From NCBI GenBank assembly GCA_006384855.1, contig VCJN01001116.1:124001-188000 (forward strand): 64,000 nucleotides of DNA, written 5' to 3'. Numbering within the stretch: position 1 is the first letter of the stretch; the number at the start of each line of letters is the position of its first letter. The notes under the pieces are model-generated. The model was not told where the DNA came from and did no database searches. It saw only the letters and a program-made list of their open reading frames with translations. The position numbers and the translations under genes are program-made. Shown here piece by piece: positions 43,670 to 58,529 of the stretch. The DNA comes from Tetraselmis striata. Its lineage: Eukaryota > Chlorophyta > Chlorodendrophyceae > Chlorodendrales > Chlorodendraceae.

Positions 43670-44888
43670 GAGTGCTGGCCTCAACTAACGGGATATGGAC
43701 TAGGAACCATATCCCCCAGCAGGGGCGTAGCTCGGCCATAGTATCGGTGCCCAAGAAAGGCGACGCGACCGTTATGGACTACATCGGGGTACTTCGATTG
43801 TGGGTGCCGCTATGAAACTCCTTATGACCGTAATTACCCAACGCTTGCAAGACGTCTGCTAAGCTAAAGGGATAACCCGCCGTTGGCAAGCGGGTTTTAT
43901 GCGGAATGAGGAGGGCCCCATGCAAGTCGCGAGCTTGTTCGATATTGCGGCTCGTCGCCAAGCGGCAGGTCTACCCACGTACGCGGGTTGTATTGACTTT
44001 AGGAAGGCATATGACACCGTACCTCATGAGCTTTTATTCCTAAAACTACAAGCCATAGGAGTTATGGGTCACATGCTTACCTTCATTAAAACTTCATACG
44101 GGGATAGTATGGTACGTGTCAAGATGGGTGGCCCCGGGAACACTATCAGACCCCATACCCATAGAGCGCGCTCGTGGTCTCCGACAGGGATGCCCCGCTT
44201 CCCCCATCCTATTTAACATATTTATTAACGATATATTCGATGGGGTAGAACATCTAGGGTGTGATGTACCAGGGTGCACCGACACATTAGCGGCAAGGCA
44301 ACCACTAAGGGTGCCTAGTCAGTTATACGCGGACGACGTTGTTGGTATCACATGCTCGTTTGTTAACCTGCATGCCATGTTCGCCCAATTCTCGCAGTGG
44401 GCGGAGGGCCATTTTATGGGGTTTGGGGTACTTAAGTGTGGGGGGATGGCATTAGGCCGATATTCCGACGAGACCGCGTTACGCGAACAAGCTGCCCGAT
44501 GGCGGCTTCGGGGGGAACGGGTACCGCCGGTTGTAAATGAATATAGGTATTTGGGTACAGTCATGAAGTCGGATTTAGGTATGCAACACATAGTAGACGA
44601 CCGGGTTAAGAGGGTAAGCGCGCCATTGAGGCACTCGATTCGGTAGTAGTCGGTGGACGGGACATAATAATTCCTATTAATGTGCGTGTGTCTATCTTTA
44701 AAGCCCGTGTACTGTCGGTTTTAAGTTACGGGTGTGAAGTATGGGGCATGGACAGAACAAACGGCGCGACTAAATTACAAACCGTACTCAATCAGTGCTT
44801 GCGGTGCCTCATTGGGTGGGTAAATCTCCCATGGGGTGGCCACTGCACCGATGATGCGGGAATTGGATATTGCGCCCGTAGAGGCTAC
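43670..44888 (+). mobile_element. LINE copy B: 5' half, split from copy C
   Basis: This fragment carries non-LTR reverse transcriptase sequence in shifting frames: SIVSVPKKGDATVMDYI, MRNEEGPMQVASLFDIAA, CIDFRKAYDTVPHELL, GLRQGCPASPILFNIF, QLYADDVVGI (the catalytic YADD) and EYRYLGTVMKSDLGMQ. It has at least three frame breaks. It ends at GATATTGCGCCCGTAGAGGC (44867-44886), exactly where copy A continues with AAGGCACGGGCTCGGGCG. That continuation is found 12.2 kb downstream at 57,077. The left end near 43,670 is 5'-truncated and no target duplication was identified. Confidence 0.85.
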
Positions 44889-44916
44889 AAACAGTAATGC
44901 AACCTATTTTGCACCG
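44889..44916 (+). repeat. Left terminal inverted repeat
   Basis: 28 bp, matching the reverse complement of 57040-57067 at 25 positions. The inner end TTTTGCACCG is followed by a further CGGTGCA, so a short hairpin lies just inside. Confidence 0.88.
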
Positions 44917-44993
44917 AGGCACGCGGTGCATTGTGGTTAGGTCTAAATTCGGGTTTGGGGGCAGCAGCGGGATTGAAAGCTAATATGAATGAC

Positions 44994-45215
44994 AGTTGGT
45001 TCATTTTGTGCTAAGTCGGGGAAACCAATTCCGTCCAAACAGGGACAAATCAAAAGAGTGAAGGAAACGGGATGGTTACAAGAAGTTTGCGCCATCGGGG
45101 GCTGAAACTCTGTCCAAACTGGGATAAAAAAAAGTGCGGGGGCCGTGATGGCTACAAGTAGGTTGTGCCGTCCGGGGCTGAAACTCTGTCAAAGCCGGGA
45201 CAAAACATATGAGCG
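44994..45215 (+). repeat. Left subterminal repeats
   Basis: Three related blocks carry (A/C)(A/C)CTCTGTC-like and GGGACAAA words. Two ~75-bp units (about 45060-45130 and 45140-45208) share GATGG.TACAAG, GGGGCTGAAACTCTGTC and GGGA.AAAA. Such repeats inside the ends often bind transposase; that role is inference. Confidence 0.65.
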
Positions 45216-45235
45216 GCTAATTTTGCGGAATTGTA

Positions 45236-48200
45236 CTACATATCACCATCTTCGATCACATAATCCCCTCGGCGGTCTGCCGCCTCTTGCCTCCTCTTCT
45301 CCGCCGCTGCACGCTCTGCGTGCTCCTCTACCAGGGTCATTGGAAAGGGTAGACCCGGCCACTTCTCGAAGTCACCTGAACGCAGTCTTTGAGTCTCGTC
45401 CCATGGCTTCTCTTTGAACCATGAGGTCATCCTGGACTTCATCCTAGCGATTTGCGTCTTCTGGTTGTCAATGAGGATCGTCTTCAAGTTCCTGTGTGTG
45501 AACGAGTAGCTATAATTCATATGGTCCCACCACACGGAAAAGGCCGCAGCGACCTGGAAAAGGCGTGGCAAACCGCACAAGTCGTAAATTTTTTATGTTG
45601 ATCCCATTAAGACACTCACTGGGGTTGCACCCCTCACGCACCGCGGTTGTCCCGGTTCCGGCTGTGACGTCGACGAATGTTGTCTCGTCTGTTGCCGCCA
45701 TCTTTAGGTGCTTGGCGAAGAGAGCGATAGGCTTTTGGTACTTGTTCACCGTTTGTCTGTTCTCGTCCTTCAACTTGGCAGAGTCTTTGAAGTGACCCAA
45801 CATGATGGATGTAGAGAACCTGGAAAGGCACAACCGGCTTAGCGAGTAAATTAATACAAGCCGGCTATTTTCCACGGATCAAATCTCACCTTCGGGGATC
45901 ATCGAAACGGATGTTGTCAGCTATGATGCTTGGCGGGGGCTTCCTGACGTAGAGGTAGTACTCAGCGTCGTGACGCAGAGAACTGCCCATCTTCATCCCG
46001 CAATCCTTGGCCCAAGTCAAGACGTGATAGATGAGGTCCTCAGCTTGTTTTTGAACGGCTGTGATTGCGGATCTAAGTTGCTGGTCCGAGAGGTGAATGA
46101 AGAAATGGCACCCATCGAGAGCAGTGTGGACGTCAGAAGATCCAGTCAGGATATTCAACTGCCTGCGCGGGGGAAAATCGGGAATGAGATAAATGAAAGC
46201 ACAGTCATCTACGAACCGGGGTTGTGGGGGGTGTCTTGCCTGGCGAAAGCAAATACGTCGTTGAAGTCGTCCGTACTCCACGCAACATCCTTCGAGTCCC
46301 ATGTGTGCGAACCAGCTCCGAAAAGCGCGTCGGCAATGAAGACTGTTGCCTTTCTGGCACGAACTGCCGACATGGCGTCCGCGACGGCTTGTTTTGTCGC
46401 GGGAGCCTTGAAGTTCCCCTCCACAATGCAAGTCTTGCAAAGCTCCGTGTTCAACCACACCTTGCTTGTCATCCGTGTCGACCTCATGGCCCTTGGGCAT
46501 CACCGGAAGTGCCCATGCCTGTGTGTATTAGAAATCAGTCGGGTTAATAGCTCACAATGAAAATTTAGAAGAGCATTTGTGGTTGCACAAGATCTCAGTT
46601 ACCTTCATCGATATCCACAGCTCATTAGAAACATTCGGAGCGGAAACCGCGATAAGCTCCGGCGCACATGCCAGAAGAGCAAACTCTGTGAAGAAGGAGA
46701 TGACCAAGTCCGGCATCTGATTCTTGATGCGATACGCCTCACTCCTGATGGTGGTGTTGGTGGCCGCGATATGCTCTCGAACCGGTAGTGGTGTGAGACA
46801 ATCGGCGGATTTCATGTCCCCCCATCTGGCAGGAGGGGTCAGCAAGACCATCAAAGGACCGGAGCGATGAGCACCTTTGAACAAATCCTGGAACTTTCTG
46901 GGGAAGCCTGTTGGGCCGAGGTCATCAACCTTGGCTCGGAACTTGGTGATGGCGTCAAGGCGACCGGCCGCTTGCTCATCCGACACTTTGTCTTGCACAT
47001 CCCAATCGATGATGTGGTCCGAGAGATATTTCCCCCAGTTCCTGGCCGGTTCGTCCGGGGTCAGCAGTTGGAGTGCCTCTCTGCCCTTTGCCGTGTCAAT
47101 GGCATTCATGAGCTTGATGCTTGCTCGACGCAAGAGATCGCGAAACCTCCAGGTCTCAATCATCGCGAGCCACTCCGCGTTGGTGTGCGTAACAGCCATG
47201 GGGCCATTGTCGCCGGCATGCTTTATGTCATCCACAAGCTCGTAGAGGCTCGGGGTCACACTGTCCTCGCCTTTAATGAGCAGTCCAACCACCAGGTACA
47301 TCTGGCCCACAGGGAGATCCGCGCTATCGCTCTGCTTGGCAAGAGACGGCTCGTCTAGCCAGGGCGCATGGTGTCCAAAGCCAACATCCTGGGTCGAGAA
47401 ACAAACTTCAGTACGGAGAAAGGAATGATAGTATTCCATGTGATTAAGACACTAGGGTCGGTCACAACTTACCTCCATGAGGGCGACTCGGAAGTGAGCT
47501 CTGTCTTTGCCGAAGCCGTACTTCTTGTTATCGAGGATTGCATTGATAGGTTTCCGAATTGCTTCGTAAACCTTCCTCACTTCCTTCTGGGTGAGTTGCA
47601 TGCCGTAATTGAGACGCTTGACTCTATCGAGTTCTTGCTGGTAGTACACAAATAGGTCTCCGAGTTTGGTTGTGGCTTCGTCCCATCCTGGAACCCCGAG
47701 GTCCACATGTCGGTAGGCTTCAGAAATCTGCTCAAGGGGCTCAAAAACACTGCGCAAATCATTTGTCAGAATCTAGCAGCATTAACAACATGATAAATTT
47801 TCATCATGTACACAGCTTACCGTTGTGGGCGCGAGCAAAGGTCAATCAAATTTGAGAACTCGCTGCTCTTCTCATCTTTGATGCCGATCTTCTCAAGTTC
47901 AACTTGAAGAACTTCAGACTTCTTGAACTCCTTCACGACTCTGATTTGCGGAAGTGCCCTACAGCCGGGGCGAGTTGCATCCTGATCTGCATACCAGCTC
48001 TCGAAACATCTGCGGAGGTTCTGCAGAAACAATTGCACCGATTTCAAAATTCCGTACGATTGTACCTCTGATGACAGACCGTTTCGTCCCACTGATAACA
48101 TACCGTTTCGTCCCACTGATGACAGACCGTTTCGTCCCACTGATGACAGACCGTTTCGTCCCACTGATGACAGACCGTTTCGTCCCACTGATGACAGACC

Positions 48201-51200
48201 GTTTCGTCCCACTGATGACAGACCGTTTCGTCCCACTGATGACAGATCGTTTCGTCCCACTGATGACAAACCGTTTCGTCCCACTGATGACAGACCGTTT
48301 CGTCCCACTGATGACAGACCATTTCGTCCCACTGATGACAAACCGTTTTGTCCCGCTGATGACAGACCGTTTCGTCCCACTGACAGTCATATTTTTAACC
48401 AGCTGACGACATAACGACTTTTGTCACACTTTACGCCTATTTGCTCCCACGGTCAGCTTTATAATAATTTGGGAGAATGGGTCGCTCACAAGGGTTTTGT
48501 GCATGGACGTGTCTCCCACGACGGTGTGACCCGCCTCGTTGAGCTTCATAGACATGTAGCGGCAGACTTCCGGCGAGAGGCCGATGTACATCTTGTCCGA
48601 CGTGAGGTGGATGCCTTTGTTGGCTTTGTAGATTTCCGGATAGTTTTCTTTCACCATGCGTTTCGCCTCCCGTCTGTGGCTGCCGTCGATGTTGGCTTGA
48701 CGCGCGCCCTGGGCGCCCAGAAACTTGATGATTACGTCAATCTCTGGCTTGTAGGAACATGAATCCGCCAAACTCGGCTTCTCCCCGCCTTCAAATAGTG
48801 CGACTTGCTCCTTGAAGTCGCCCATGGTCAGAGCGATGGGCTCATACTCTTCGCTGAGCGTTGAGGTCATACTCTTGGCAACCAATGGAAAGGACACTGA
48901 GAAATTCTGGGCGGATAGGGAAGGATTCCTCTGAATAACAAATGCAAGAAATGGATGTCAGTAAGTTGCATTGTGTATTGATTTAGATTTGTCTACACAT
49001 ATTTGATCCGGGTAGGTACAACAGGTCGCGATAGGCTTTTACCTTGTAGCTTTGCGCCACCATATTGCAGTCTTGCAGCTTTGGGGAACGGAATTCAAAT
49101 TTTCGCGGCGGTGCGATGAACTTCTCGGATGGGAAGCTGAAAATATGAGGAAGCCCCGTATCCTTGTCGACGACGAGGTTGACTCTGTCGGCGTATAACG
49201 TGTTGATGTCGCCACTGTGAGATGCCTTCACCTCTGGATCAGCAATCTCGACTCTGAGGTGGCCGTAAGAGATCGACGGCACCGGTGTTGTAGAAGCCAT
49301 TCAAGGCCGGCGGGACGGCCAACGTGTCGACGTATGGAAGCGCGTTCTTAAAATCCTTGTCAATGTTAGCCAAGTCATCGATGTCAATCTGACCAGATGC
49401 GAAACCTCTCAGCGCCTGCGACAGCACATTGCGCTCGACCAAAGTCCATCCGTAGTAAGACTGGAACCGCGGCTAGAAGCAGAGTGACGGTTCGATCGCG
49501 TGGAGTAGCAACCTCTCAAAGCTGACATCGATCCTGAACTCCTTGTGCAGTGTCAAGCGATAAGGTTCAAGAGAGATCTGCGGTAACAAGCATAAGAATA
49601 TTAATACTTATTGATACACGACATTGACACGAATTCAGAGACATTATATAAACTTTACTCACCCCGTAGTTTCCGGCCGAGTCCAGCTCGACGTCCTTGA
49701 TCTTTCCGATACACGCGAGAAGTGGCCCCTTCGGATCATCGAAAAAGTCCTTGCCAGTCAGCAGGCTCGCCTCGTGCAATTCGATGTACAAATAGATATG
49801 TACCTCAACACTTGTGTTCTTGAACCAGTGGATAGTCCAGCTCCTTGAGGTTAAGTCGCTGTAGGAGTCATGTTCTTGGGACCCGTCCCTCTCGTCAAAG
49901 AAGTGGTCGTAAGAGGCAACTGTCATCAGCTTTGTCTCCCTCTCGGGTCCAGGAGTGCCGGTGATGTCGAGAGCTTGCTTACGCTTCTCTGCCGCCCGTT
50001 GCCTCTGTTCTTCCTCTGTGCCGAAGACCTCTTCATCCGTGCACATGCTGAGGAATTCAGGAACCCTTCTTCTCGGAACCTCGGCAAGAGATGCTCGAGA
50101 ACCAGAGGCTCCAGAACCGGACGCTTGCCCGGTAGTCGGCGCTGGAGTCTCGAGCTCGGGCTGAGGCTCCGGTTCAGGCTCCGGGTCACGCCGAGTGGGC
50201 TCATGCTCAGGCTCCGGCTCCGGCTCAGGCTGAGGCTCCGGTTCATGCTCCGGCTCTGGCTCCATCTGAGTGGGCTCAGTTTCAGGCTCATGCTGAGGCT
50301 CGGGCTCGGGCTCAGTGGGCTCTGTTTCAGGCTCCAGCTCGGGCTCCGGCTCGAGCTCAGGCTCCGGCTCTGTTTGCGGTACTTGAGGCGGGCCTTTAGA
50401 CAAAGAAGAGCCTTGATTCGGGGAACCTGTAAAGAATGAGTAGAGAGTACTCAACACACCTGCAGTGGGCGTCACGATTTACTACTGAACGGTATCGCCA
50501 TACACCATCAAAGCCAAGCGTGATTTTCTTACCTGGGGATCCCGATTTACCAGTTGCTTCCGACGCGGTTGCCTGCGCCAATTGACGACCTGTTGGAACG
50601 TCAGATAACTCACTGACGAGAAATCAATCGAAGGGTTGGAAGGCAGGGATTGATACTTTCAGTCACAATTACCTTGAGTCACAATCGTCTCTGAAACCTT
50701 TTCTTTTCCCTTGGATTCCTTTGAAGCTTTAGTCACAATCGTCTCTGAAACCTTTTCTTTTCCCTTGGATTCCTTTGAAGCTTTAGTCGCTACTGGCTCA
50801 TGTGCGCGTCCTTTCGAACCTGTCAACACACATGATTTCAAACAATGTCAATATGACACAGTGCACTCACAAAAATCATATGATTGGAGAGGCAAGGACC
50901 TGATTGATAGTAAGCTTGCATGAGCTTTTCGTAATCGATTAGCCTTCGCGCTGTCTGCATTTGAGCATCTGAGAGGACTTGGCCGCTTTTGATTCGGGCC
51001 GTCAAAATAGCGGCGGCCGATCTTTCTCCTTGCGAGTGCGTGCCGTAAGCCGGCACTCTACCTCCTAAAAGGCTCGGTTTCCAGGGGTTACCTGATGCCT
51101 CGGCGCCCGCTCTAGCTGCAGAAGCTGAGGCTGCACGGCTCTTCTTCGCCGCCGGCTGCTCGGGCACAGAAGATGACGCCTTGTGTTTTCTCCCGACTAG

Positions 51201-52376
51201 CGCTCCGAGCGTATCGAATTCTTTTGCTTTCTCGGTAGGTTTTGATGTCCGCTTGGACCTTCGACCTATAAATATCATATTCTGTCAGACCGTTTCGTCC
51301 CACTGATGACATACCGTTTCGTCCCACTGATGACATACCGTTTCGTCCCACTGATGACAAACCGTTTCGTCTCACTGATGACAGACCGTTTTGTCCCACT
51401 GATGACAAACCGTTTCGTCCCACTGATGACAAACCGTTTCATCCCGCTGATGACAAACCGTTTCGTCCCGCTGATGACAGACCGTTTCGTCCCAGTGATG
51501 ACAGAACGTTTCGTCCCACTGATGACAGACCGTTTCGTCCCACTGATGACAGACCGTTTCGTCCCACTGATGACAAACCGTTTCGTCCCGCTGATGACGA
51601 ACCGTTTCGTCCCGCTGATGACAAACCGTTTCGTCCCACTGATGACAAACCGTTTCGTCCCACTGATGACAGACCGTTTCGTCCCACTGATGACAGACCG
51701 TTTCGTCCCACTGATGACAGACCGTTTCGTCCCACTGATAACATACCGTTTCGTCCCGCTGATGACAGACCGGTTCGTCCCGCTGATGACAAACCGTTTC
51801 GTCCCGCTGATGACAAACCGTTTCGTCCCGCTGATGACAAACCGTTTCGTCCCGCTGATGACAAACCGTTTCGTCCCACTGATGACAAACCGTTTCGTCC
51901 CACTGATGACAGACCGTTTCGTCCCACTGATGACAGAACTATTTCCAATACATTATGTACTGCGGTTTAATAATGTTATGTTTTTAAGTACTGCGCTTCA
52001 CACTAATATTAAACCACTCCTTACGGCGGAGTACATGCACAGGGTCCACCTCTCCGCTCTCCACCCCCAACCCCCTCCCACAAATAATTAGCATCCTTAC
52101 TGAACTTGCCGCAGCTGCCTCGACGGGACGTAATACTACCGTGCAGGACCCTGATGCCGCTCGTCTCGTTTGGGTTTCTATTCCCACTCGTCCGCCTACA
52201 CCTCGAGCGGTCCTAGATTACACCGCTTCTACAGGGAACCCGAACCGAACTCGCTAGATCTGGCCGCATCACGCGTCGAGCAGGCAGGCAGCTACTGTAC
52301 GCGCGCGCAACTCACCTGGGGTGGCGTCGTCCTTGTCTTCCTTGTCCTTGGCAGGCTCGTTCTTCTTCGGCGGCAT
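45236..52376 (-). CDS. 14-exon gene ending in an amino-methyltransferase-like domain (disrupted)
   Basis: Inferred exons: 52376-52316, 51265-50900, 50819-50673, 50589-50533, 50426-49663, 49577-49043, 48930-48490, 48020-47821, 47749-47473, 47388-46603, 46518-46240, 46162-45890, 45819-45642, 45553-45236; about 1,550 codons. The N-terminus is basic ([17 protein letters not shown]), with a doubled [18 protein letters not shown] unit and Glu-Pro repeats. The C-terminus has [17 protein letters not shown] (DPPY position), then [25 protein letters not shown] spliced to VAAAF, and [18 protein letters not shown]. Motif IV before motif I is the permuted order of beta-class N4/N6 amino-methyltransferases. 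DALF in place of DPPY may mean altered or lost activity. TAG at 49475-49473, a one-base surplus later in exon 6 and a frame change early in exon 11 break this copy. Exon 11 uses a GC donor. Confidence 0.65.
48064..48389 (+). repeat. 24-bp tandem array 1 (about 13 units)
   Basis: The unit is 24 bp and starts CCGTTTCGTCCCACTGATGA. The array sits in the intron between exons 7 and 8 of the methyltransferase-like gene. Because the unit has no stop in several frames it creates long false reading frames ([16 protein letters not shown]). Confidence 0.92.
50155..50385 (-). repeat. Glu-Pro coding repeat
   Basis: Imperfect hexamer repeats encode (E/H/Q)PEPE blocks in exon 5 of the methyltransferase-like gene, an acidic disordered segment. 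Confidence 0.85.
50688..50790 (-). repeat. Exact 54-bp-scale coding duplication
   Basis: Two adjacent copies of the same stretch encode [18 protein letters not shown] within exon 3. The two DNA copies look identical, so the duplication is recent. Confidence 0.85.
51286..51938 (+). repeat. 24-bp tandem array 2 (about 27 units)
   Basis: Same unit and same orientation as array 1. It lies in the first intron of the methyltransferase-like gene. Variants include CCCGCTGATG for CCCACTGATG and CAAA or CATA for CAGA at the unit end. Confidence 0.92.
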
Positions 52377-52926
52377 TCTGGCGGTAGGTAGGTTGACGCG
52401 GTAGATGAGCGGGTTTCTTGGTGGGAAGCGGTGAGGGAGAGGTGGAAATGACGTGGTTTCTGTCTACCGCCGCTCTGACCCTTGCTGGACCAACGGCGCG
52501 CGTGCGCGCACTATAGTGCACCTCGTCGTCGTCATCAGGCTCATGTATTTTGCTCCGCGACGAATATGCAGGGCTAACTACTGCGACTATATATTACTAT
52601 TACTGGAAGATAAAATATTCCCTACTCGAGAGTCATAACGGTACGAGAGTACAGTAGTGGCGTGGCAATAATATTCCTTCATGGGATGATATATTTCTTG
52701 GATTGGATTCGGGTGTACTTACTAGTATAGAACTATTACCGACATACGAAAGAAACACGAAATAAAACGGTATTTGAGTCATCAATTATTTTGACCCGTA
52801 GCTGGATATTATGCACCCCGGTCAACGGCCCGTCCGAGAACGGTCATCGGCCGTCAGCCTTCCTCACCACAGATCACAGTCCTTCACCCCCCCCCCCCCC
52901 CCCCACCACTCGCCCCACGCTGGAGC
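52377..52926. promoter_or_regulatory. Shared divergent promoter region of the 12.2-kb element
   Basis: About 550 bp separate the two divergent start codons. It is AT-rich around 52,560-52,760 and ends with a C run at 52,887-52,904, just before the transposase ATG. By position it must drive both genes. No specific factor sites are claimed. Confidence 0.45.
52887..52904. repeat. Poly-C run
   Basis: An 18-base C run lies 22 bp upstream of the transposase-like start codon. Confidence 0.9.
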
Positions 52927-55900
52927 ATGGCGGCGGTCGAAAGCATGGCCTCTTCTCCAGAATCCGGCGCGTCGGACACTACAGTTACATTACCGCCGTG
53001 TTCGTGCCGCAGCGGGTACTCGTGTGATTGCGACGCGCGTGCTAGTGATCGTAAGGAGCCTGAGAAAAGGAAGTACACGTGGGGCAAGGGCTCCGATGAG
53101 GTCGCCGAAAGCGGTACTGGCAAGGTCTCGTCTCTGATCAGCAAGCGCACCTCTCGCGACTGTATCCGCCTCATGCTCGCCAAGGAGGCTAGCGAGCAGT
53201 CGCCGTGCTGTTCGCGGAAGTGCGTGCACAAGCTATACACACAGTGCGGAGAGGCCCTCGTTGATGCCGTGATGGACCATGTGTTGACCGTATACCCTGG
53301 CAATCAGAACCGCTCCTTTGACCGGCTCACTCAGGTTCTCAGGGGTGGCTACGAGTCGGCATCCGACAAGTTCGATTACATGTTCGATCACGGTGGCTAC
53401 TTGCGATCTTTCGATCATCGCGGCCCCATCTACACGTGTGGGCGTGCGTGGGAGGTCTTGCATCAGGTCTCGAAACACAGACGTCTCGTGATCCAGCGGT
53501 CGGTGGTGGATAACGAACCCACGTACATCAGGCAGCGCAAGCAATACGAGAGCAGACAAACCGGACCGAGGGAGCATGTGCGCATGTTTCTCGAGCACTT
53601 CTTCTCGGATGACCTCGGTCACGTCGAGATCATGCCTTTTCATGACAGCAACAGCGAGACCTTCAAGAAGCACCTACCTCCCTGGATGACCAAGGTTTGC
53701 GTCTACTACTACTACAAGTCGTGGGCCGAGGACGACAACGCCATTCTCCGTGGTGAGGCCCATTTTGTCCCACTGATGACAGACCGTTTTGTCCCACTGA
53801 TGATAAACCGTTTCGTCCCACTGATGACAAACCGTCTCGTCCCACTGACGTTAGACCGTTTCGTCCCGCTGATGACAGACCGTTTCGTCCCACTAATGAC
53901 AAACCGTTTCGTCCCACTGATGACAAACCGTTTCGTCCCACTGACTACAAACCGTTTCGTCCCACTGATGACAGACCGTTTCGTCCCACTGATTACAGAC
54001 CGGTTCGTCCCACTGATGACAAACCGTTTTGTCCCACTGATGACAGACCGTTTTGTCCCGCTGATGACAAACCGTTTCGTCCCATCCACTGACGACATAT
54101 CGTTTTGTCCCGCTGATGACAAACCGTGTCGTCCCTCGGTTGACAAACCGTTTCGTCCCGCTATCGCCAGAACGTTTAGTCCCACTGATGCCAGAGCGTT
54201 TCGCACCGCTTATGGCATACCGTTTCGTCCCACCGACCACAAAACCATTTGTCCCACATAATTAGCCGATATCGTCCCTCTGATGACAGACCGTTTCGTC
54301 CCACTGCTGAGAGACGGTTTTGTCCCACTACTGACATACCGTTTCGTCACACTGATGACAGATTGCTTCGCCCTGCTGATTACAGAATTATTCACTAACT
54401 ATCGATATAATTATTTCGACCCACTTTAGACCGAACTTTTCTGTCTCGCATTATGAGACCTTATTTGTGTACCGACCTATCATGCCCATGCCGCTTTATA
54501 AATTTGGCTACCGAGAGCGAAGTGAAGCTCGCATCGTTCGACACTTTCCGCCGGACTTGGAAGGAAGACTTCCCGGATGTCACCACGCCAAAGGTGAAGC
54601 GATTCAGCCACTGTCCCATATGCGCGGCGGGCAAAGCACTCAGAGACCAAGCTCGCGAGATTTGCACAAAGGACATGACGCCAGAGGAACGTCAAGTGCA
54701 CCGTCAACATCAGCAGCTCGTGAGGCGTCAGATCAGAGCTGAGCAGAAGGTACACTTCGGGAGAGTGCGCAAGGAACGAAGGGATCTGAACAACGCCGAC
54801 TTCCAGTCGCGCCTTGGCCATGGAAACTTCTTCTTCTTCGAAATTGATAGCATGGACTCCGCGAAGACCCTGCTGCCTCACTGGGTTCGCATCCCCAAGA
54901 CTGTGAAGCCCGGCATGCTCCTCAAGTACCACCTCACCTGTGTGAAGTACGACGGATACCGCCCGGACGACATCTACTACTACACCAACACCATCCCCCA
55001 CGATTCGTCCACGACGTGCACTCTAATATGGATCACGATCATGAAGGTGAGCTCGTTAGCCTCCCGATAGGTTCGCCGTGGTTGTCCGGTAGCCATGGAC
55101 TGATGAAATCTGATCTGCGATGCAGGAAATTCAACACCGTGGTAGAAAGATTCCGTACATCATAATCCAGATGGACAACACCGTCAGGGAGAACAAGAAT
55201 AGGAACGTGGCGGCCCTCTGCAATTGGCTTGTGTCTATCGGCATCTGCGACGTCATTCATTTGGTCTTCTTGCCTGTCGGGCACACTCACGAACGGGTTG
55301 ACCAGATCTTAAGCCGCATCAGTCTTGCGCTATCTCGCAGCTCCGCCTACACAATCAAGGCCTTTCTTGACTTGGTGGCGAAGGCATTCTCGCCCACTCC
55401 GGAGATTGCTGAGCTCTCATTCTCCCTCGACTTCTCTGAGTGGTTAAGGCCCCATTTCCAAGACCACATTCAGGACATCAGAAAGCCGCACAAATTCGAG
55501 TTCACCCGTGACGACGCCGCCGCGTCTGGCGGCCCGTTGGGCACCGCCTTGTGGTCCAACACACCGCTTTCTGAGCCCGTGCAGATCTTGAAGAGCGCGC
55601 CAACTGGGACGCCCGAGATTCGTGCGGGCCGGCCCCTTTTGTACGCTCTCTGCGACAAAAAGAAGCCCGACGCGGTGAAGGTCCAGAGGTACTTGGATGA
55701 TTTCAAGAAGGTCAGGTCGTACATCACGGACCTGGCGGTCCAGTGGCACTTCTCCCCAGTCGAGCGCGAGAGTTGGAAGAATCTGCTCGACGACTTGGAT
55801 GAGATGCAAACTGCTCCTTTGGCAGCTTTCTCCGGGTTATGGCCGCAACGGAAAGAGGAAGTTGACGACTTCTTGCGCGAGCACGGGCAGACCGCGCCTG

Positions 55901-56777
55901 CTGAGGCACGTCACACGATGGCTACCAACGCAGACCTCAACAATGCCGAAGCCGCTCGCGTTGAAGCCGAGGTTCGTGCTCAAGTGCTTGAAGATGACAG
56001 CGCCTTCCGGGGAGTTCACGCCGGCGCCAAGGAGAGGCTTCATGACAACACATCGCCCAGCGATGCAAAGGGCTCGAACCTCGTTGTCATCGACGTCTCC
56101 TATGTGAGTCCCATTGTTTGTCATTTTTGTCCTTTACGGGACAAAACAATTTGGTTCATCTACCTTGCTTGTTATTTTGTCCCAGCTGGGACAAAAATGG
56201 CGTGGCGTCTCGCTCGGGACTAACATAGCTCGTGGTCTTGGCCATCATTAGGTGCATGAGGAAGACAAGTGTCATGAAACTCTTGGTGATTGGGAGTCGA
56301 GATTCGTCATCGGGCTTGTGAAGTCGCGCGAGACTACCGAAGACACGCACGTTGACTGTGGCCGTATACGAGCCCTTCCATGCCGATGCAAAGGGCAAAC
56401 CCCTCATGCCCCTATGGTTGTACGCGCAGACAAAAGAAGGGAAGAAGCCAGTTGACACAAGCTGGGAGAAGTGCTTGACGCTTCCTTGGAAGCTTGTTGA
56501 AGCCGTCCGCCTATCGTACGTGAAGGCCATCCACGACGCGTCGGGAAGTCGCGAGGTGTTCAACGAGGACGGCACCATGGTCAGAAAGAAGTGGTACGGT
56601 AAAAGCGTCCAAGTCGTGAAGACATATGCGCAAACTGGGTGGCAAATCAGCCAGCCACGAAACAACTGCGTCCACGTCATGTCAACCACCCCAGCGCAAC
56701 GCAAACCCCGCGGAGTCGTCAAATTTAACGCAGCCACGAAGAAGGACTTGCTTGAGTTGGGAATGCTCAACGAATAA
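52927..56777 (+). CDS. DUF7869-type transposase-like protein, four exons
   Basis: Inferred exons: 52927-53752, 54430-55046, 55126-56103, 56252-56777 (about 980 codons). Exon 1 has a Cys-rich start (PPCSCRSGYSCDCDARASD) and TCGRAWEVLHQVSKHRRLVI. Exon 2 has a CPICAAGKALRDQAREIC knuckle-like region and FFFEIDSMDSAKTLLPHW. Exon 3 has YIIIQMDNTVRENKNRN and FLPVGHTHERVDQILSRIS. D...(Q)MDN...GHTH-x-x-VD is the conserved core of DUF7869 proteins, which look like RNase H-fold (DDE-type) transposases; that catalytic reading is inference. Exon 4 shows one extra base near 56,345, where ETTEDTHV must shift frame to reach TVAVYEPFHADAKG. The exon 2 acceptor at 54430 was chosen because it keeps phase. Confidence 0.72.
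53760..54385 (+). repeat. 24-bp tandem array 3 (about 26 units)
   Basis: It lies in the first intron of the transposase-like gene, in the same orientation as arrays 1 and 2. Units decay towards the 3' end, where TCGTCCC words remain at irregular spacing. Confidence 0.9.
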
Positions 56778-56900
56778 ACTATCAGCAACGTCTTGTGGCT
56801 AGCTAGCCGGTGGATGTTATCATCATAATAAATATTGATTTGCCTCATCTTGTCCCATTTTGGACAAAATGCTCCAAAACCAACATTGGATATGCGTCGC
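56120..56900 (+). repeat. Right-end GGACAAA/TTTGTCC inverted words
   Basis: Near-palindromic words TTTGTCC...GGGACAAAA occur at about 56,129-56,147, 56,174-56,198 and 56,852-56,871. They mirror the left subterminal GGGACAAA blocks. Two fall in the last intron of the transposase-like gene. Confidence 0.6.
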
Positions 56901-57039
56901 GGCTGACCTGCATGCTGATGAATGCTGCACTGCACCCAAGGTCTATTAACCCAAGCTACATCACCAGTGAGTCTTAAGTACTGATAGTAGACCCGGGAAC
57001 TAGGGTATAAACAAACCCTACGGTGCAAAATGAATTCCA

Positions 57040-57067
57040 CGGTGCAAAATAGGTTAATTTACTGTTT
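57040..57067 (-). repeat. Right terminal inverted repeat
   Basis: Pairs with 44889-44916 (25/28). CGGTGCAAAAT is also present once more at 57021-57031, just inside. Confidence 0.88.
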
Positions 57068-58529
57068 ACGGCCGCTGCGGCACGGGCTCGGGCGTTCCTT
57101 GAAGCATCCGACTTGAATACTTGTATAACCCATTTAGTAGATCAGGCAAGTCGGGTGCGCCCTAACACGTGGACGCACGTCGGGGACTGTGCGGTGGTTA
57201 GATCGACTAGCTAGGGCGAACGTAGGGCTAGCTGAGGGGGCGCACCTTCCACTTGAGTGGAGATCACTAGCCGCGCGCGATGCCGCTAAACTAGTAAAGG
57301 CATTGGTGTGGGCGCGTTACGAATCGTCGGCATCGTTAGCACGCAATATAACCTGGGGTATATATGTCCATGCGTCTTATGCGTCAAACCCGTTGCCACG
57401 GTACTGTGTGGGTGTCCCCGCGGGGGTTGTGGCCGGGCTGCACATTATGATACAATTACGCACCCGAGTATTTCTCACTGCCCGCCGATTGGCCCGGATT
57501 CATGCCATGCCTGAGCGGTTCCTAGAACAGTGCCCTGCATGTGGCGGAGGTGAATATGAGACTATCGAACATATGTTGGTGGAGTGCCCGCGGTGGGGGT
57601 ATCACCGTCATAATTTTGGGTTGTTAGTTCCGGAGTTCATGGATTTTATTAGTACTCAGGTTATTGCGTCAACACCCGAGGACTTAACTGCCTTTATTTT
57701 GGGCGGGGTCCCCCTTCCCTTCACGGCGCCCTGGATTTTACTGGGAATGGGAATTTTTTCTAGCTATGGCGACGGGCCCTCCCTCACATTGTGAGGTATA
57801 GTAATGCCCTAATGCAATTAGAGGCAAGGAGACAAAGGTTGTGAGGAAACTGTATCGAATCTTACATGATCATCAGCTGGTTCAGCTATTTATCGGCAGT
57901 CCGCAGCACAGAGGCAGAGCAACGGCAAAGCAGTTCAGCGGTTAGCCTTGGGCATTGCGGAAATATAGCATTGGGGAATGTCAGTAGCATCATCGGGGGA
58001 CTGTTTGTAGTAGCATCGGTGATTGGGATTGATAATGATAAATGGTATGCGTACATGTTACAGTACGAGTTACAAAAGTACGGCAGGTAGTGATATAATA
58101 TATATAGGAAATGATAATAATATGAGATAATATGAGATAAGTGGTTATGTGGGTATAGTGTAGGGTTAGGTGTAGTCCTAACACACATTGCCTTCATTGT
58201 TGCACATGTATCACAATACCGAAATGCTTTGCTCCGCGGGTTGGGGCTTGCCCCAACTCGCATTACTCGAATGGGCCGACGCCCAAACGGGTAGGGCGGA
58301 CCTTTCGTGGTCAGTGCCGGGCGGGTATTTTGATGGCAGTGTTTTAGACGGTGATCCAACAGTGTTGGAAATTCCGTCACTGGCCCTGCAATTAGTCTTG
58401 CAGAATGCTTCGGCAATTTGCTTGATGACCATAACGGAGCCTCGCCTACCCAGGGCTTTCCGTCACTGGATTGTTGCCTAAACGGCCGTCGTAGAGACGT
58501 TGCCAATCCTATCCCGGGGGCGAAAAAAA
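57068..58529 (+). mobile_element. LINE copy C: 3' half of the split LINE
   Basis: It resumes with GCGGCACGGGCTCGGGCG at 57,077, continuing copy B. The frame 57189-57794 encodes LARANVGLAEGAHLPLEW, HIMIQLRTRVFLTARRLARI and the C2HC region CPACGGGEYETIEHMLVEC. After it, another frame ends with SNALMQLEARRQRL. The 3' end at 58,518-58,529 is CCCGGGGGCGAAAAAAAA, matching copy A. About 390 bp here (57,795-58,188) are absent from copy A. The short untemplated ACGGCCGCT between the transposon end and the LINE may include a diverged target duplication. Confidence 0.85.

Follow-up and report, generated by a model that had tools for sequence, protein, structure and literature searches.

What kind of mobile element, some 12.2 kb long, interrupts a repeat in the green alga Tetraselmis striata, and what part could be played by the second, methyltransferase-like gene that it carries? 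The window analysed here is a stretch of 64,000 nucleotides (assembly GCA_006384855.1, contig VCJN01001116.1, positions 124,001 to 188,000 of the forward strand), and the features of the element are collected in Table 1. The element holds two genes, head to head on opposite strands, one for a probable transposase with the Pfam domain DUF7869 and the other, called the partner gene below, for a protein that ends in a domain resembling N4/N6 DNA methyltransferases. A sequence-only reading of the window had proposed a 12.2-kb DNA transposon with terminal inverted repeats inserted into a repeat, and this is borne out by comparison with other copies in the assembly (224 Mb in 2,903 contigs, to which all genome-wide counts refer). 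Our results point to a family of cut-and-paste DNA transposons that is most probably Sola-like, of the Sola-1 kind.

Ends, copies and target site of the element

The left end of the element reads AACAGTAATGCAACCTATTTTGCACC and the right end, on the opposite strand, AACAGTAAATTAACCTATTTTGCACC; within the element 24 of the first 27 bases of the two ends match, and 26 of the first 30. When up to two mismatches were allowed, a 29-bp right-end pattern had 290 matches in the assembly (146 forward and 144 reverse) and a 27-bp left-end pattern had 250 (125 on each strand), the latter count being contaminated by right ends (at least two among the 100 places listed), and the reversed control of each pattern had none. 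For a query of about 500 bp from each end, the 40 matches scored comprised the window itself and 39 further places, at 94-97% identity for the left end and 96-97% for the right, and all of these matches extend to within 1-2 bases of the element boundary. The inverted repeats first noticed in the window are therefore present, and other copies share them rather than having different ends. The earlier count of 25 matches over 28-bp ends was correct, though one base falls outside the element as redefined here; the limits of 44,889-57,067 given at that time enclosed a real element but were off by one base at each end, as the other copies show.

Same-strand pairs of a left and a right end no more than 30 kb apart numbered 15 when 98 left and 100 right ends were taken from the listed matches, and their spans are 9.8-12.8 kb in nine pairs, 18.6-28 kb in five and 1.43 kb in one. 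The shortest of these, at C1495, retains the two ends and is flanked by a perfect target duplication; it has probably lost internal sequence. Five full copies were read through, those of the window, C226, C1441, C2588 and C1426, and both genes are open in only one of them (C1441); the copies at C508 and C118 were partly read and are left out of every copy count. On contigs C483 and C613 an identical 30-base left flank stands beside an element (L030 and L031), which suggests haplotigs or a duplicated segment. At C2590:63,005 the sequence to the left of an element end (L040) is identical to a piece of partner exon J, which suggests that a copy of the element inserted into another copy; the right-junction pattern for this nested insertion had no match, and the contig stops before the expected right end.

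The uninterrupted form of the flanking repeat reads GAGGC-TACG-GCCGCTGCGG at the insertion site. A query of 185 bases, in which the two flanks were joined with one copy of the duplication, crossed the junction in all 40 matches scored (the best 40 of 818 candidates) at 95-96% identity, and the empty site was read base by base in four of the six copies fetched, the other two lying on the minus strand and not having been re-aligned. Sixteen copies, those with both flanks read rather than every copy in the assembly, were compared for target duplications. Nine have a perfect 4-bp duplication (TCAC, GCCA, AATT, GTGA, TGAA, GTTA, TTGT, TCAA and GGGT), and three of the four bases agree in a further four (the window, C488, C24 and C889). 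Perfect duplications of 3 or of 5-8 bp were found in none of the 16 copies and a 2-bp one in a single copy (C226), and none of the 240 mismatched pairings of left and right flanks had equal 4-mers. Empty sites and a constant target duplication were what the sequence-only reading had proposed to look for. Its view that the element splits a long interspersed nuclear element (LINE) holds for the splitting of a repeat, but the LINE identity was seen only as a weak zf-RVT match in one right-flank frame (E 0.011, below the cut-off). The junctions that it gave, at 44,886 and 57,077, are a few bases off because copy A, the uninterrupted copy used for comparison, is shortened there. The flanking repeat also matches contig C1134 near 93,944, 98,285, 102,625 and 106,965, on one strand and at a spacing of 4,340-4,341 bases, a pattern that resembles LINE units, or copies of some repeated block, arranged head to tail.

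Table 1. Positions in the window of the element, its genes and its intronic arrays
Feature	Position	Strand	Remark
Whole element	44,890-57,066		12,177 bp; boundaries set from other copies
Left target-site duplication	44,886-44,889		TACA; based on the empty site TACG and on 4-bp duplications in other copies
Right target-site duplication	57,067-57,070		TACG; one mismatch to the left TACA
Left terminal inverted repeat	44,890-44,919	+	AACAGTAATGCAACCTATTTTGCACCGAGG
Right terminal inverted repeat	57,037-57,066	-	Minus-strand reading AACAGTAAATTAACCTATTTTGCACCGTGG
Partner gene, 14 exons	45,239-52,376	-	Open over 1,531 codons in C1441
Partner exons, first to seventh	52376-52316, 51265-50900, 50819-50673, 50589-50533, 50426-49663, 49577-49043, 48930-48490	-	
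Partner exons, eighth to fourteenth	48020-47821, 47749-47473, 47388-46603, 46518-46240, 46162-45890, 45819-45642, 45553-45239	-	
N4/N6 DNA-methyltransferase-like C-terminal domain	45,239-46,518	-	DALF at presumed motif IV; TAGTGTT at motif I
24-bp array, partner-gene intron	48,080-48,395	+	12 motif matches
24-bp array, partner-gene intron 1	51,285-51,945	+	24 motif matches
Probable transposase, exon 1	52,927-53,752	+	Donor kept in all five full copies
24-bp array, transposase-gene intron 1	53,763-54,390	+	16 motif matches
Probable transposase, exon 2	54,430-55,046	+	Carries first aspartate of three-aspartate pattern; start uncertain
Probable transposase, exon 3	55,126-56,103	+	DUF7869; second and third aspartates
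Two inverted TTTTGTCC pairs, transposase-gene intron 3	56,125-56,196		Core shared with the arrays
Probable transposase, exon 4	56,252-56,780	+	Frame broken in the window copy

The two genes and their intronic arrays

The probable transposase gene has four exons with GT-AG junctions common to the five full copies, save for a truncated exon 3 in C2588. Its assignment comes from the match to DUF7869 (PF25273, E 1.3e-35 on 55,114-56,100) and from a three-aspartate pattern in which the aspartates of D-x-x-D (both), Q-x-D-N and GHTHE-x-x-D are invariant in all five core sequences compared. The second and third aspartates are 39-41 residues apart in six of eight sequences (in the other two, P0065 and P0066, the second was misplaced by the script), and we consider that the DUF7869 protein is probably a transposase. 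By eye, the run of likely strands and helices around the aspartates looks like an RNase-H fold. A solved-structure search with the core gave two matches, both unrelated (E 1.6 and 2.1), and exon 1 was without a match in a Pfam scan. Matches to Transposase_23 (E 0.00066) and to an integrase core (E 0.0052) among the DUF7869 relatives occurred in one of eight sequences each and were set aside as evidence. The frame is uninterrupted over 981 amino acids in C1441; exon 4 of the window exceeds its counterpart in each of the remaining four copies by 4 bp. In the gene models of the Joint Genome Institute (JGI), P0002 joins exon 2 about 24 codons further on, and P0049 joins DUF7869 to the methyltransferase domain, this fusion probably being a rearranged copy or a gene-model error.

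A genome search with exon 3 reported 123 matches (of 765 candidates), 98 of them without a stop. A recent burst of activity is suggested by 15 of the 123, which tie at the top score directly under that of the window. The closest relatives are gene models of the JGI set Tetstr1, the best with 94% identity over 98-99% of the query, and distant relatives were found beyond Tetraselmis in a metagenome protein (51%), Montipora (28%), Chromera (30%) and others.

Of the five full copies, C1441 alone has an uninterrupted partner gene; that of the window has a stop and a frameshift in exon 49577-49043 and a frameshift in exon 46518-46240. One of its exons precedes a GC-AG intron. Exon C has 147 bases in the window and 93 in the other four copies read, and a 54-bp tandem duplication (50,673-50,780, 98% identical) overlaps it. 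The earlier proposal of two spliced genes in the element is confirmed.

The proposal of a methyltransferase-like cargo was likewise confirmed, the last 348 residues of the protein encoded in C1441 matching PF01555 (N6_N4_Mtase) above the cut-off (E 2.6e-7, 31.3 bits against 26.7). The alignment starts at profile position 46, so the first part of the domain is unmatched, and PF01555 was matched at all in 4 of 14 related gene models. The C-terminal domain also matches phrog_67, a DNA-methyltransferase family, with an E-value of 2.8e-9; a weak NCBIfam match to CcrM (E 0.00044, 19.3 bits against a cut-off of 830) was set aside as evidence. The position that reads DALF is what we take to be the site of motif IV, DPPY in this class, and DALF stands there in all five full copies, in all 14 gene models and in all four relatives whose exon J is 75-76% identical to that of the window. 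The remainder of the protein has no confident family match, each of the 14 sequence relatives found is a Tetstr1 model, and solved-structure searches gave no usable match. A ParB domain had been suspected from a protein of Ectocarpus discussed below and from a stretch that seemed to us ParB-motif-like. PF02195 (ParB) had no match in the pieces of the partner protein or in the 14 relatives, its four matches genome-wide included none at an element exon, and hhalign of the partner protein against ParB gave a probability of 0.2%, in a weak test with three ParB sequences only; the suspicion was therefore dropped. The four genome-wide matches (ParB_N, in long frames) lie on C935, C1010, C185 and C2280, and the three inspected (C935, C1010 and C185) look bacterial, so that the assembly seems to contain bacterial contigs.

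The two genes travel together. The sequence-only reading would have been contradicted by genes that occur apart and never together, but for 70 of the 123 exon-3 matches a match of partner exon J lies at a distance of 4-16 kb (median 8.9 kb) on the other strand, in the head-to-head order, where chance would give about 0.004 per match. Viewed from the other side, 71 of 146 exon-J matches have transposase exon 3 as their mate. In all the comparisons of full copies that were computed, the ratio of nonsynonymous to synonymous substitution rates (dN/dS) lies below 1, at 0.26-0.94 for the partner gene and 0.18-0.94 for the transposase gene; for partner exons L and M it is 0.11-0.57 in nine of ten pairs, and the tenth is undefined.

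Three introns, one in the transposase gene and two in the partner gene, hold tandem repeats of a 24-bp unit (CCGTTTCGTCCCACTGATGACA type), all in one DNA orientation. That the element has intronic arrays, as first read from the window, is borne out by their presence at the same three places in all five full copies, with motif matches that vary from 6 to 12, from 16 to 56 and from 16 to 21. Genome-wide the unit had 2,315 and 2,474 exact matches and its reversed control none. The 100 places listed fall on three contigs (C18, C24 and C30, the last with two stretches), in every case next to ends or genes of the element. Outside the arrays the core TTTTGTCC occurs at six places in the element, including 45,205 and 56,869 near its ends, against two in the other 51.8 kb of the window.

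Relation to Sola and alternative explanations

EnSpm/CACTA transposons have CACTA-like ends; the ends here read AACAGTAA and are not CACTA-like, and that superfamily was set aside. Sola elements are described as having a DDD (three-aspartate) transposase, a 4-bp target duplication and inverted ends of 11-1,124 bp, most being 2-9 kb long and some more than 15 kb (PMC10741241). The present element fits that description in its duplication length, in its size and in inverted ends within the range, and its three-aspartate pattern may correspond to the DDD transposase. A giant Sola-1 element of the brown alga Ectocarpus, Sola1-1_Ec32, is reported to be 21.5 kb long and to encode, opposite the transposase, a protein of 1,104 amino acids with a ParB-like and an N4/N6 DNA-methyltransferase domain (PMC12477816). 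It is likewise a large algal transposon with an opposite-strand N4/N6 DNA-methyltransferase-domain gene, and the Tetraselmis family therefore appears to be a variant of a published kind, although it differs in length (12.2 kb), in the size of the partner protein (1,531 amino acids) and in that no ParB domain was detected. The fixed DALF and the intronic arrays are features of the Tetraselmis element and are not mentioned for Sola1-1_Ec32 in the passages of PMC12477816 compared here. According to the same source, which cites Iyer 2011 and Petroll 2025, similar ParB/DNA-methyltransferase proteins occur in transposons of green and red algae and may bind and modify their own element. The claim that the element matches no known superfamily is thus not supported, since its anatomy fits the descriptions of Sola (PMC10741241) and Sola1-1_Ec32 (PMC12477816). 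As for the claim that it is undescribed, no description of this particular family was located in a search limited to open-licence literature, without Repbase and Dfam, but a similar element is known from Ectocarpus.

Several observations weigh against a Sola-like, cut-and-paste transposon with two linked genes. The transposase was set beside Sola by published descriptions and not by sequence comparison, no counterpart of the ParB domain in the Ectocarpus protein was detected in the partner protein, and the RNase-H fold is a matter of residue pattern because no solved structure matched the core. Three of the 16 copies (C809, C226 and C1441) match at one base at most in their 4-bp flanks, and one of these, C1441, is the sole copy with both frames open. 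A listed mate is lacking for 53 of the 123 transposase matches and for 75 of the 146 partner matches; the unpaired matches are no proof of separation, because only the best candidates were scored and contigs end. The dN/dS values are noisy (0.11-0.94), as the changes are few and decayed copies add noise.

The element could instead belong to a separate DNA transposon superfamily defined by DUF7869, which would share the 4-bp duplication with Sola by coincidence and would have acquired a related accessory gene. We regard this as unlikely, though worth serious attention, given that the likeness to Sola is one of description, that DUF7869 is without a transposase name in Pfam and was not named in the open-licence literature searched, and that accessory TET/JBP genes are reported to shift between superfamilies in fungi (PMC12730594). 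Such a coincidence would have to extend to the three-aspartate pattern, the size range and the opposite-strand methyltransferase gene, all of which agree, with the duplication length, with the accounts of Sola and Sola1-1_Ec32. It is very hard to believe that the element is an integrated virus or a Polinton-like element. Its large size, its inverted ends and a methyltransferase domain that best matches a phage family would be in keeping with that origin, and Tetraselmis is mentioned in the literature on Polinton-like viruses; however, a scan of ten stretches, in which not all exons were included, showed no virus domain, three scans of a viral-contig collection confirmed no relative of either protein, and the duplication is 4 bp long as against the 6 bp given for Polinton (PMC10045372). 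A Sola-like transposon remains our preferred reading of the element.

The partner protein raises alternatives of its own. It is possible, but doubtful, that it is catalytically active as an N4C/N6A DNA methyltransferase and marks the very element that encodes it. The PF01555 match above the cut-off, the retention of TAGTGTT at motif I and the dN/dS of exons L and M, which in 8 of 10 copy pairs is the lowest among the three sets, agree with activity, but the DALF found in every copy, gene model and older relative speaks against it if DPPY is, as we assume, the catalytic form. Self-modification has also been proposed for the Ectocarpus protein by the authors of PMC12477816. At the other extreme, the partner could lack any role, having been captured once and then carried along with the transposase, and its decay in most of the full copies read could be taken in that sense. 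This we consider quite improbable, since the gene is kept head to head beside so many transposase matches, its dN/dS is below 1, and the stretch around motif IV, which aligned separately in two of the four relatives that are older, is 90-91% identical there (over 39 and 22 residues), against 76% for exon J of these two.

Possible role of the partner protein

In the mechanism that we propose for a Sola-like element, the DUF7869 protein, as a DDD enzyme with an RNase-H-like fold, would recognise and cut the AACAGTAA ends and join them to target sites staggered by 4 bp. The window copy, decayed in both genes, would need proteins from other copies to move. The partner would be an accessory protein of N4/N6-methyltransferase fold that binds the DNA of the element itself and acts on it, plausibly at the 24-bp intronic arrays, and it could in this way regulate transposition or help the element to escape silencing. 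With DALF at motif IV throughout, the protein may bind S-adenosylmethionine and DNA without methylating; if DALF ended catalysis, a binding role would be likelier than self-methylation.

There is a parallel in plants. In Arabidopsis, the VANC21 protein is reported to bind short motifs of one orientation, often in tandem, in introns and non-coding parts of VANDAL21, and this binding accompanies loss of DNA methylation on VANDAL21 (PMC5735166); VANDAL elements belong to the MuDR family (PMC12730594). As far as these accounts go, the two systems share an accessory gene and tandem intronic motifs of one orientation whose number varies between copies. The parallel is an analogy of anatomy, VANC motif binding having been measured whereas binding is proposed here. 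In its most specific form our suggestion, which is speculative and rather unlikely to be right as it stands, is that the partner is a conserved, non-methylating methyltransferase relative that binds the 24-bp arrays and the cores near the ends and that serves an element-specific anti-silencing or transposition control evolved apart from plant VANC.

Algal transposons with methyltransferase-domain proteins seem to be thinly described, in one brown-alga survey and two works cited by it. The present family links DUF7869, a domain also seen in proteins of a coral, of Chromera and of metagenomes, to a mobile element whose ends are defined, and this link would aid the annotation of DUF7869 as a probable transposase. 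The family has many copies that are nearly identical, its ends are fixed and its target duplication is defined, and the array is a clear candidate for binding, so that the function of its proteins becomes directly testable.

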